A DNA stretch of 64,000 nucleotides, taken from positions 2,418,001 to 2,482,000 of the forward strand of contig NZ_CP151657.1 in the NCBI RefSeq assembly GCF_038405225.1, given 5' to 3'. This document shows positions 2,852-16,120 of the stretch, in pieces. The position numbers and the translations under genes are program-made. The first letter of the stretch is position 1; each line of letters opens with the position of its first letter. Below the pieces are notes generated by a model. The model had not been told where the DNA came from and made no database searches. It was given only the letters and a program-made list of their open reading frames with translations. Source of the stretch: Arthrobacter citreus. GTDB taxonomy: Bacteria > Actinomycetota > Actinomycetes > Actinomycetales > Micrococcaceae.

Positions 2852-3809
2852 TGAGGCTCCTGCCGGTCAGCCGAAGGAACACGTCTTCGAGGGATGAGCG
2901 GCGCACCAGCGAGGTGATGGGACGCAGTCCGCGGGAGCTGACCGCCTCCAGGGCGGCCTCGCCGTCGTCGGCATAGATCAGGACGCGGTCCGGGAGGGTT
3001 TCGATCCGGCTCCCGATTCCTTCCAGTTCGCCGGCCACCGTTGTATTGCGCTCAGAACCGAAGCGCAGTTCCAGTACCTCCCTCGTGGAATGCTCACGGA
3101 TCAGGGCAGCGGGTGATCCTTCCGCCATGATCTTTCCCTTGTCCACCACCACCAGTCGGTCGCACAGCTGCTCCGCTTCGTCCATGTAGTGGGTGGTCAG
3201 GATCAGCGTGACGCCGGCTTCCTTGAGCCGGAACAGCCGGTCCCAGAGGATATGGCGCGCCTGCGGGTCCAGTCCCGTAGTGGGTTCATCCAGCAGCAGG
3301 ATCTTGGGGTCGTTAATGAGCGACCGGGCGATGGTCAGCCGCCGCTTCATACCGCCGGAGAGCGAATCCACCCGGGCCCTGGCCTTGTCCGTCAGCTGGG
3401 CGAATTCCAGCAGCTCATCAGCCTTCGGTCCCAGATAGCTCTTGGGCAGGCCGAAGTACCGGCCGTAGGCCAGGAGGTTGTCGCGCACGCGCAGGTCTTC
3501 ATCCAGGTTGTCCTGCTGCGGCACCACCCCCAGGTGGGCACGCACCTCGGGCCCGTACCGGTCCGGGTCCAGGCCCATGATGGTGAGGTCCCCGGAGGTG
3601 CGCGATGACACGCCGCCGATCATTTTCATGGTGGTGGATTTGCCGGCGCCGTTGGGGCCGAGGAGCCCAAAGGACTCCCCTGCCGGGACGTCGAAGCTGA
3701 TGCCGTCAACGGCGTGGAAATCGCCGTAGGTCTTGCGGAGGTTCCGGGCCGAAATGACGGTGGAGGAGGCGGTCTTGGGGACAGTCGGGGCTGATGTGAT
3801 CTGCGGCAC
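2844..3809 (-). CDS. ABC-2 exporter ATP-binding protein (DrrA-like)
   Basis: 321-aa ATPase energising the exporter formed with the two downstream permeases. Walker A GPNGAGKST near residues 53-61, Q-loop in VVPQQDNLD, signature LSGGMKRR near residue 149, Walker B LLLDEPT near residue 171, and switch His in TTHYMDEAE. A C-terminal domain follows, as in DrrA/daunorubicin-type ATPases. The GTG start sits exactly 6 nt after a TAGGCT -10 box on the minus strand with no Shine-Dalgarno, so the operon is probably transcribed as a leaderless mRNA. Confidence 0.92.
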   Translation of the reverse strand: MPQITSAPTVPKTASSTVISARNLRKTYGDFHAVDGISFDVPAGESFGLLGPNGAGKSTTMKMIGGVSSRTSGDLTIMGLDPDRYGPEVRAHLGVVPQQDNLDEDLRVRDNLLAYGRYFGLPKSYLGPKADELLEFAQLTDKARARVDSLSGGMKRRLTIARSLINDPKILLLDEPTTGLDPQARHILWDRLFRLKEAGVTLILTTHYMDEAEQLCDRLVVVDKGKIMAEGSPAALIREHSTREVLELRFGSERNTTVAGELEGIGSRIETLPDRVLIYADDGEAALEAVSSRGLRPITSLVRRSSLEDVFLRLTGRSLID

Positions 3810-13712: not shown

Positions 13713-13784
13713 ATCCGCCGGTTCCCGGCCGGTTGGACCTCCCGCCTCCCGGCCGGGGCTGCGCACCGGGCCTTCCGGTCACGG

Positions 13785-13818
13785 CGGGCGTCTTTTTTCG
13801 TACCGCGCCCGTCTTTTT
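13785..13818 (+). terminator. intrinsic terminator after the membrane protein gene
   Basis: CGGGCG stem with CGCCCG partner followed by TCTTTTTC. A second T-run (TCTTTTTT) lies in the loop. It is placed about 75 bp after the preceding plus-strand stop. Confidence 0.55.
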
Positions 13819-13848
13819 CGGGTTTCACCACCCCGCACGCTATACATC

Positions 13849-13889
13849 CTTCGGCGCCCATGGTTATCTTCAGACGATGGGCGCCGAAG
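13849..13889 (+). repeat. 13-bp perfect inverted repeat spanning the GCS2 start codon
   Basis: Left arm CTTCGGCGCCCAT (13849-13861) and right arm ATGGGCGCCGAAG (13877-13889), perfect over 13 bp, with a 15-nt loop. The right arm begins with the ATG of the GCS2 gene, and the loop contains a TATCTT -10-like box placed 6 nt before that ATG. A second possible -10 (TATACAT, 13841-13847) would instead put both arms in the RNA, hiding the start codon in a very stable hairpin. Confidence 0.9.
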
Positions 13890-15346
13890 TGAACAGCAAA
13901 ACGTACAGCCGCGAGCAGCGAACGCGTTACCGTCAGCGGCTGCTGGAGAACCTTGACCGGTTTGCCGGTTATCTTTCCACCGCCACGTTTGCCGATACGT
14001 GCAGCATCGGCCTTGAACTTGAGCTGAACCTGACGAATCAGGATTTCGCTCCCGCGCTCAGGAACGCGGCCGTCCTCGAGGAGATCGCGGATCCGGCTTT
14101 CCAAACCGAAATCGGCGCCTTCAACATTGAGATGAACCATCCGGCCCTTTCCATCAAGGGCTCGGGCCTGAGGGACCTCGAAGACTCCCTCCGATACCAG
14201 CTGAACCGTGCCGACACACGCGCTGCCGACGTGAAAACCGAGATCCTCATGGTGGGAATCCTGCCGACACTTCAGCCCGCCGTGCTTGAGGACAAGGAAT
14301 GGTTGAGCGCGGGCAAGCGCTACGCCGCGTTGAACACTTCCGTCCTCCAGGCACGCGGCGAAGACGTGCACGTGGATTTGCGGGGCGCTGAACCCTTGTC
14401 CTTTTACGCCAAGAACATCGCCCCGGAGGCAGCCTGCACCTCGGTGCAGCTTCACCTTGAGGTGAGCCCGGAGGACTTTGCCCCGGCCTGGAATGCGGCC
14501 CAGATCATTGCCGCGCCACAGGTTGCCCTGGCCGCCAACTCCCCCGTCTTCCTGGAACACGTCCTGTGGCATGAAACCCGCATTGAGCTCTTCAAGCAGG
14601 CCATTGACACCCGTCCGCCCGAGATGAGGAACCAGGGTGTGCGGCCACGGGTCTGGTTCGGCGAACGGTGGATTACATCAATCTTCGATTTGTTCGAGGA
14701 AAACGTCCGCTACTTCCCCGCCCTCCTGCCGGAACTCTCACGCAGCAGCGGAGGATCCACGGCAGCCGGGGCTCCCCTGCTCCCGGAACTGCGCCTGCAC
14801 AACGGGACGGTGTACCGGTGGAACCGCCCGATCTATGATCCCGGGGATCACACCCCCAACCTGCGTCTGGAGAACCGGATCCTTCCGGCCGGCCCCACAG
14901 TGCTGGACGTTGTTGCCAACGCCGCTTTCTTTTACGGACTGGTGCATCATTTGCGCACCGCCGATCGTCCCCTGTGGAGCCGGCTGGCATTCAAGAGCGC
15001 CGCGGACAACTTCCTTGCCTGCGCCCGTTCAGGGCTGGAAGCCACCGTGTACTGGCCGGGCATCGGTGAAACCCCTGTCGCCGAGCTGATCATCCGCCAC
15101 CTGATTCCGCAGGCTGCCGAAGGGCTCCGTGAGCTGGGCGTGGACGACCATCTGATTGGGCGGTATCTGGATGTGGTCCGGGAAAGGGCCCGCACGGAAC
15201 AAAACGGGGCCTCCTGGCAGATCGCCTATCTGCGGCGGCTTGAGGGCGAGGGGATGGAACGCAGGCCGGCCCTGGCGGAAATGACCCGCAGATACTGGGA
15301 AAACATGCACACCAATGCCCCGGTGCACGAGTGGCCGGTTGACTGA
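13877..15346 (+). CDS. glutamate--cysteine ligase family 2 (GCS2/YbdK-like) protein
   Basis: 489 aa. Carboxylate-amine ligase of the GCS2 superfamily: the metal/ATP-binding strand TCSIGLELELNLTN near residue 40, IGAFNIEMNHPAL near residues 80-92, the central LHNGTVYRWNRP segment and the basic ENRILPAGPTVLD near residue 340. Family members ligate glutamate to cysteine, but many actinobacterial paralogues have unproven substrates, and these bacteria use mycothiol rather than glutathione, so a different amide product is likely. The ATG is chosen because the TATCTT box lies 6 nt upstream; the longer in-frame version starts in the terminator region. Confidence 0.82.
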   Translation: MGAEVNSKTYSREQRTRYRQRLLENLDRFAGYLSTATFADTCSIGLELELNLTNQDFAPALRNAAVLEEIADPAFQTEIGAFNIEMNHPALSIKGSGLRDLEDSLRYQLNRADTRAADVKTEILMVGILPTLQPAVLEDKEWLSAGKRYAALNTSVLQARGEDVHVDLRGAEPLSFYAKNIAPEAACTSVQLHLEVSPEDFAPAWNAAQIIAAPQVALAANSPVFLEHVLWHETRIELFKQAIDTRPPEMRNQGVRPRVWFGERWITSIFDLFEENVRYFPALLPELSRSSGGSTAAGAPLLPELRLHNGTVYRWNRPIYDPGDHTPNLRLENRILPAGPTVLDVVANAAFFYGLVHHLRTADRPLWSRLAFKSAADNFLACARSGLEATVYWPGIGETPVAELIIRHLIPQAAEGLRELGVDDHLIGRYLDVVRERARTEQNGASWQIAYLRRLEGEGMERRPALAEMTRRYWENMHTNAPVHEWPVD

Positions 15347-15398: not shown

Positions 15399-15425
15399 CT
15401 GGCACTCGTACATGCCGAGTGCTAA
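15399..15425 (+). promoter_or_regulatory. CIRCE element (HrcA operator) upstream of hsp20
   Basis: CTGGCACTC-N9-GAGTGCTAA, against the consensus TTAGCACTC-N9-GAGTGCTAA: the right arm is perfect, the left arm deviates at two positions. It overlaps a candidate promoter (TGGCAC, 17 bp, TAATCT at 15423-15428), so HrcA binding would block RNA polymerase. Confidence 0.82.
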
Positions 15426-15437
15426 TCTGAATTCATT

Positions 15438-15458
15438 CTTGAGCCGATGTGACTCAAG
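15438..15458 (+). promoter_or_regulatory. HAIR element (HspR operator) upstream of hsp20
   Basis: CTTGAGC-N7-ACTCAAG, against the HspR consensus CTTGAGT-N7-ACTCAAG: one mismatch in 14 fixed positions. It begins 12 bp after the CIRCE element, around the expected transcription start, giving a second heat-shock repressor a roadblock position. Confidence 0.85.
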
Positions 15459-15529
15459 TTATCGACCCTTCAGAAGTTCCGAATATCGATTCGCCTGCCG
15501 TGCAGGTGGGCGTTAGGAGTTGATGACAG

Positions 15530-16120
15530 ATGGCCATGAAGTTTGATCCATTCCGCGAGCTCGACCGGATGGCAGGAGCCCTGCTGGATCCGCGGCAGCG
15601 GCTGCGGTTGATGCCCATTGACCTCTACCGAGAGGGCGACCACTACATCCTGAATGCCGATCTGCCCGGCATTGATCCGGGTTCCGTCGATGTGGATGTG
15701 GACGGGCAACTGCTGACCATCCGGGCAGAACGCACCATCCAGGCCTCTGACAGCGTTACCTGGCTGACCCGGGAACGTGAATCCGGGTCATTCCTGCGCC
15801 AGCTGAACCTTGGGCAGGGGATCAACATTGAAGGCATCTCCGCCAAGTACGAGAACGGCGTCCTCAGCGTTCTGATTCCGGTCAGCGAAAGGGCGAAGCC
15901 CCGCAAGATCGAGGTGTCGTCCTCCTACAAGGATTCGAACACCATCAGCGGCCAGTCCAGTTCGGAATCGGTGACCTCGTCAGCTTCCAGCGGATCGGGT
16001 TCCTCCGGTTCGGGGTCGGGTTCCGGTTCTGACTCCTGGTCATCCGGCTCCGGGTCATCCGGGTCAGGATCCGGTCCCTCCGGATCAGGTTCCTCCGGCG
16101 ATCAGGGTTCCGGCATCTAA
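15530..16120 (+). CDS. hsp20: Hsp20/alpha-crystallin family small heat-shock protein
   Basis: ATP-independent holdase chaperone of the cytoplasm, 196 aa. N-terminal arm (FDPFRELDRMAGALLDPR), alpha-crystallin domain residues 28-120 (MPIDLYREGDHYILNADLPG, GSFLRQLNLG, ENGVLSVLIPV), then the terminal KPRKIEV. Odd feature: instead of a short flexible C-terminus it carries a Gly/Ser-rich tail of about 60 residues with SGSGSG repeats. TAGGAG lies 10 nt upstream of the ATG. Both CIRCE and HAIR operators precede it, so heat control by HrcA and HspR is expected. Confidence 0.93.
   Translation: MAMKFDPFRELDRMAGALLDPRQRLRLMPIDLYREGDHYILNADLPGIDPGSVDVDVDGQLLTIRAERTIQASDSVTWLTRERESGSFLRQLNLGQGINIEGISAKYENGVLSVLIPVSERAKPRKIEVSSSYKDSNTISGQSSSESVTSSASSGSGSSGSGSGSGSDSWSSGSGSSGSGSGPSGSGSSGDQGSGI

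Follow-up and report, generated by a model that had tools for sequence, protein, structure and literature searches.

Adjacent CIRCE and HAIR operators at an hsp20 promoter of Arthrobacter citreus suggest dual repression by HrcA and HspR

Introduction

How do two chaperone-titration signals combine on one gene? HrcA and HspR are usually studied as parallel thermostats that read GroE and DnaK, and an hsp20 promoter with operators for both is a natural place to ask this question. HrcA is a CIRCE-binding repressor aided by GroE (PMC8533110), and HspR is a HAIR-binding repressor aided by DnaK (PMC8223512). A promoter of this kind lies in a stretch of 64,000 nucleotides (hereafter the window; genome positions 2418001-2482000) of the complete, 3.88-Mb genome of Arthrobacter citreus. 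An initial annotation of this DNA had placed a CIRCE and a HAIR side by side upstream of hsp20 and had proposed that the gene is controlled by both repressors. Here, we analyze the operators, their regulators and their conservation among relatives. We consider it quite likely that this is a compact two-repressor hsp20 promoter, which is derepressed only when HrcA and HspR have both released it.

Results

The operator pair sits between the stop of an upstream open reading frame (ORF; 15346) and the start of hsp20 (15530), and is made up as follows (window coordinates):

15399..15425, + strand: CIRCE operator (predicted HrcA site), CTGGCACTC-N9-GAGTGCTAA; 2/18 mismatches; kept in orthologues
15438..15458, + strand: HAIR operator (predicted HspR site), CTTGAGC-N7-ACTCAAG; 1/14 mismatches; kept in orthologues
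15530..16120, + strand: hsp20, small heat-shock protein (alpha-crystallin domain) of 196 aa; Pfam PF00011, E 9.3e-20

Scored against the consensus TTAGCACTC-N9-GAGTGCTAA, the CIRCE agrees at 16 of 18 bases; it reads CTGGCACTC-GTACATGCC-GAGTGCTAA in full, with both mismatches in the left arm and a perfect right arm. The HAIR follows after a gap of 12 bp (TCTGAATTCATT), reads CTTGAGC-CGATGTG-ACTCAAG, agrees with the consensus CTTGAGT-N7-ACTCAAG at 13 of 14 bases and ends 71 bp before the hsp20 start. The two elements were therefore described correctly at the outset, as a near-consensus CIRCE with a perfect right arm and a HAIR with one mismatch 12 bp past it.

In the Hsp20 protein, the alpha-crystallin domain occupies residues 34-130, and a Ser/Gly-rich low-complexity tail (window 15965-16117), whose length differs between species, forms the end; the open frames range from ~190 to 263 aa across the genus. 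The ORF 5' of the operators (window 13733-15346, up to 537 aa), when tested from 13901, gave no hit to Pfam or NCBIfam at E 0.001.

Both regulators invoked by the proposal were found to be encoded in the genome. HrcA was identified with TIGR00331 (308 bits), and its gene sits behind its own CIRCE. HspR was identified with NF047375 (140 bits, above the cut-off) and is encoded by the last gene of a dnaK-grpE-dnaJ-hspR cluster, the usual place of hspR; two HAIRs precede the cluster. A further HspR-like protein of the MerR family, which scores 92-101 bits and thus falls below the cut-off, is encoded in genus g8 on the opposite strand beside a second hsp20 (G062:C1:1737772, G085:C1:342038, G038:C93:49223 and G122:C1:730836). 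No HAIR was found upstream of such second hsp20 genes (L126, L133), and this protein is possibly a dedicated local repressor of the adjacent hsp20.

With up to three mismatches allowed, the CIRCE pattern matched seven sites in the genome, compared with 0 for the reversed-pattern control. Two of these sites are at groES/groEL, two at the second groEL (groEL2), and one each at hrcA, an FmdB/Ruc-type gene and hsp20; all but the hsp20 site lie where HrcA would be expected to act. The hsp20 HAIR is the sole genome site with at most one mismatch and is thus the best in the genome; two HAIRs at dnaK and one at clpB are among those with 2-3 mismatches. Only at hsp20 do CIRCE and HAIR occur together. 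None of the remaining sites for either element is paired, which rules out a composite at other chaperone genes of this genome. The promoters of its remaining two hsp20 genes (L128, L129) were also scanned, and neither operator was present (at best, 8 mismatches for CIRCE and 3-4 for the HAIR core). Shuffled upstream regions yielded no CIRCE with four or fewer mismatches, and 1/460 held a HAIR core with one mismatch or none; together with the genome-wide controls, these results rule out chance palindromes. The CIRCE at the FmdB/Ruc-type gene (L022, ~2986-3012; genome 364985) lies upstream of a gene for a small zinc-ribbon protein, and its assignment to the regulon is coherent because Rv0991c (Ruc) of M. 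tuberculosis likewise belongs to the HrcA regulon (PMC8223512).

The initial reading had been made to depend on conservation in relatives, and the composite proved to be conserved. By Hsp20, the closest named relatives are Arthrobacter gandavensis and other Arthrobacter species. An hsp20 orthologue was present in 29/29 genomes of the genus, and both operators were readable (each with at most three mismatches) in 25 of these 29 orthologues, at a gap of 11-13 bp. In the four exceptions, CIRCE is degraded (L060, L064), HAIR is lost (L071) or both are lost (L081). A missing regulator was ruled out as the cause of single-site loss, since hrcA and hspR were present in 29/29 genomes sampled, including those that had lost one site. 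Among the best 80 named relatives (Micrococcaceae and Microbacteriaceae), 71 carried both operators, 4 HAIR only, 1 CIRCE only and 4 neither, and the centre-to-centre distance was 33-38 bp in 69 of the 71 pairs.

A strict composite scan, which gave no reversed-control matches, matched 59/395 genomes of the family, 20/396 of the order and 3/396 of the phylum, one of the last three being atypical and away from hsp20. In a family sample, both sites were present in 47/62 orthologues at 55% identity or more, and neither site was present in 20/30 hsp20 genes more distant than these. All of the composites examined precede hsp20 except one (G468), which has a 29-bp spacer and no hsp20 nearby. Across 81 distinct composites, the bases of spacer and loop vary but the two palindromes are retained. 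Judging from these comparisons, the composite is not a one-off and is a widespread feature of this hsp20 clade. Near-perfect CIRCE arms with a spacer of 8 rather than 9 bases were observed at hsp20 in L092, L094, L095, L099 and L177; the arm spacing for HrcA is usually taken as fixed.

Other arrangements of the same operators were also found. In hsp20 promoters of family f86 (L229-L231), the order is reversed, with HAIR upstream and CIRCE downstream, close together, and this may be an alternative design for the same dual control. In genus g6 (L107, L108), a HAIR-CIRCE-HAIR sandwich lies upstream of hsp20. Both layouts fit the expectation if both sites are wanted regardless of layout. Because reordered variants exist, as do single-site variants in genomes that still encode both regulators, the operators must be gained, lost and reordered independently, yet in this clade they occur together far more often than apart. 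The orthologues that have lost one or both sites and keep both regulators suggest that dual control is not obligatory. Because hrcA and hspR are present and the composite is conserved, dual control of hsp20 by HrcA and HspR is well supported at the operator level, and at that level the original proposal stands.

The initial annotation had also claimed that the CIRCE overlaps a candidate promoter. Two elements of this promoter can be proposed:

15399..15404, + strand: putative -35 hexamer CTGGCA, within the CIRCE left arm; from position and comparison
15423..15428, + strand: putative -10 hexamer TAATCT, overlapping the CIRCE right arm; TANNNT in 79/81 distinct composites

The form TANNNT, which is the expected actinobacterial -10, was read from the hexamer after GAGTGC, and the sixth base of this hexamer, outside the CIRCE consensus, is T in 98% of the 81 distinct composites. 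TTGGCA or CTGGCA stands 18 bp upstream of the -10 in 52/81, and the G at the third base of the putative -35 departs from the CIRCE consensus A. Since TANNNT follows the CIRCE core so regularly, the CIRCE is probably embedded across the core promoter; the transcription start is predicted at ~15434-15436, and the HAIR would then begin a few bases past it. A strict sigma-70 consensus scan called no promoter at this locus, so the promoter is proposed from conservation. Thus, the claimed overlap is backed by the -10 and -35 across species, but not by the strict scan. At hrcA in this genome, the CIRCE is overlapped at its upstream end by a TAGACT in the promoter, and by this comparison the hsp20 CIRCE appears to be shifted upstream, leaving room for the HAIR. 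An alternative sigma factor could drive hsp20.

Finally, the leader between the HAIR and hsp20 has features that might add a posttranscriptional layer:

15459..15470, + strand: leader block TTATCGACCCTT, conserved and complementary in sequence to the extended Shine-Dalgarno region (putative, weakly supported); genus comparison
15492..15512, + strand: putative hairpin in the leader, immediately 5' of the Shine-Dalgarno sequence; z -2.4 for the predicted fold of 15457-15535
15515..15526, + strand: extended Shine-Dalgarno region AGGAGTTGATGA, almost unchanged across the genus; genus comparison

Directly after the HAIR, TTATCGACCCTT is strongly conserved in the genus amid drifting leader sequence, and in most leaders it ranks among the stretches that best complement the Shine-Dalgarno region. 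The RNAalifold consensus consists of exactly TTATCGACCCTT pairing with AGGAGTTGATGA, with 0 pairs showing a compensatory change. The fold of the shorter stretch (15457-15535) differed from shuffles by the z given above, and that of a longer stretch was no better than shuffles (z -0.03); leader models showed no opening up to 55 C, and the leader matched no Rfam family. The block is retained in L081 despite the loss of both operators, which hints at a separate role for TTATCGACCCTT. We regard a translational lock or RNA thermometer in this leader as a weakly supported lead from modelled folds. A triple lock on hsp20, with HrcA on the core promoter, HspR past the start and TTATCGACCCTT masking the extended Shine-Dalgarno region, seems unlikely; if it were true, expression would require both repressors to leave and the mRNA to be heated.

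Discussion

How might the two operators work together? In the two-repressor reading that we prefer, HrcA bound to the CIRCE would exclude RNA polymerase, because this operator reaches from the putative -35 to the putative -10. HspR bound to the HAIR, probably assisted by DnaK, would keep the polymerase from binding or from escaping, because the HAIR starts a few bases past the predicted start. One repressor alone should suffice to keep hsp20 down; if so, transcription would need both to be released, and the simplest logic would be NOR. In the bacteria that have been studied, the activity of HrcA is linked to GroE and that of HspR to DnaK. Expression of hsp20 would therefore require that both chaperone pools be overdrawn or that heat inactivate the repressors, and the expected output would be a tighter, later response than that of groEL or dnaK.

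Cooperative repression, in which HrcA and HspR touch across the 12-bp gap and form one complex, so that losing either largely opens the promoter (OR-type release), is conceivable, and we hold it only tentatively. In C. jejuni, the two repressors interact, and their binding to sites 27 and 11 bp apart is cooperative (PMC7464140); the tightly held spacing described above (33-38 bp in 69/71) would suit such contact. However, the H. pylori homologues bind independently, and HrcA and HspR of M. tuberculosis are reported to function independently (PMC7464140). Furthermore, the start site alone may fix the spacing, and orthologues with CIRCE only, HAIR only or the reverse order exist.

A division of labour is possible as well, although we would not expect it: HrcA would be released by GroE titration or heat and HspR by DnaK titration or proteolysis, and the response would be graded and multi-input, with no strict two-key lock. 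Consistent with this, GroE stimulates HrcA, and in C. jejuni HrcA no longer binds DNA at 42 C, whereas HspR remains active to 45 C (PMC8533110); in M. tuberculosis, HspR works with DnaK and is degraded via the proteasome (PMC8223512). However, both sites at hsp20 are predicted to overlap initiation, and partial release of one repressor should yield little unless occupancy is incomplete. That a single operator matters in this strain, the other being a relic or a weak auxiliary site, is very unlikely: the CIRCE left arm carries 2 mismatches and sister lineages have lost CIRCE or HAIR singly, but both palindromes have been kept amid drifting spacer and loop bases in the 81 distinct composites, the HAIR is the best in the genome, and a relic would not persist across several families.

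The two-repressor promoter can also be set beside known systems. The initial annotation had assumed that HrcA and HspR rule separate regulons in actinobacteria, and this is only partly right, since published work places acr2 (hsp20) of M. tuberculosis under HspR, HrcA and PhoP, and groEL2 of that species is likewise under joint HrcA/HspR control (PMC7464140). Like the gene studied here, acr2 is an actinobacterial small heat-shock gene under both repressors. Compared by description only, it differs in that PhoP is described as the nodal regulator recruiting either repressor, whereas Arthrobacter hsp20 has two canonical adjacent operators on its predicted core promoter.

In C. jejuni and H. pylori, the groESL and hrcA promoters are under dual HspR/HrcA control (PMC7464140), with CIRCE-like and HAIR-like sites on one promoter; the C. 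jejuni distances of 27 and 11 bp compare with 12 bp here. There, the targets are groESL and hrcA-grpE-dnaK; HrcA covers the start site, and HspR binds upstream of the promoter. In contrast, the Arthrobacter target is hsp20, the CIRCE would span -35 to -10 with the HAIR downstream, and the HrcA targets do not form a subset of the HspR regulon.

The HspR regulon of Streptomyces (dnaK, clpB, lon) and of Deinococcus, in which hsp20 is under HspR (PMC2687793), is similar in having HAIR operators and hspR in the dnaK operon, but CIRCE is not mentioned at those promoters in PMC2687793. Streptomyces albus hsp18, in turn, differs in using RheA. The groESL promoter of Streptococcus and Staphylococcus resembles the present case in that two heat-shock repressors, CtsR and HrcA, act on one chaperone promoter (PMC7464140), with CtsR instead of HspR and groESL instead of hsp20.

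No composite CIRCE/HAIR at an hsp20 of Micrococcales turned up in a literature search that took in a minority of subscription journals. The parts themselves, and joint HrcA/HspR control at other promoters, are already known. What appears to be new is a conserved, fixed-register CIRCE-HAIR tandem in the hsp20 promoter across several families of one order. In these harmless soil bacteria, the tandem layout, its reverse form and the single-site losses provide ready-made variants for AND, OR or graded logic.
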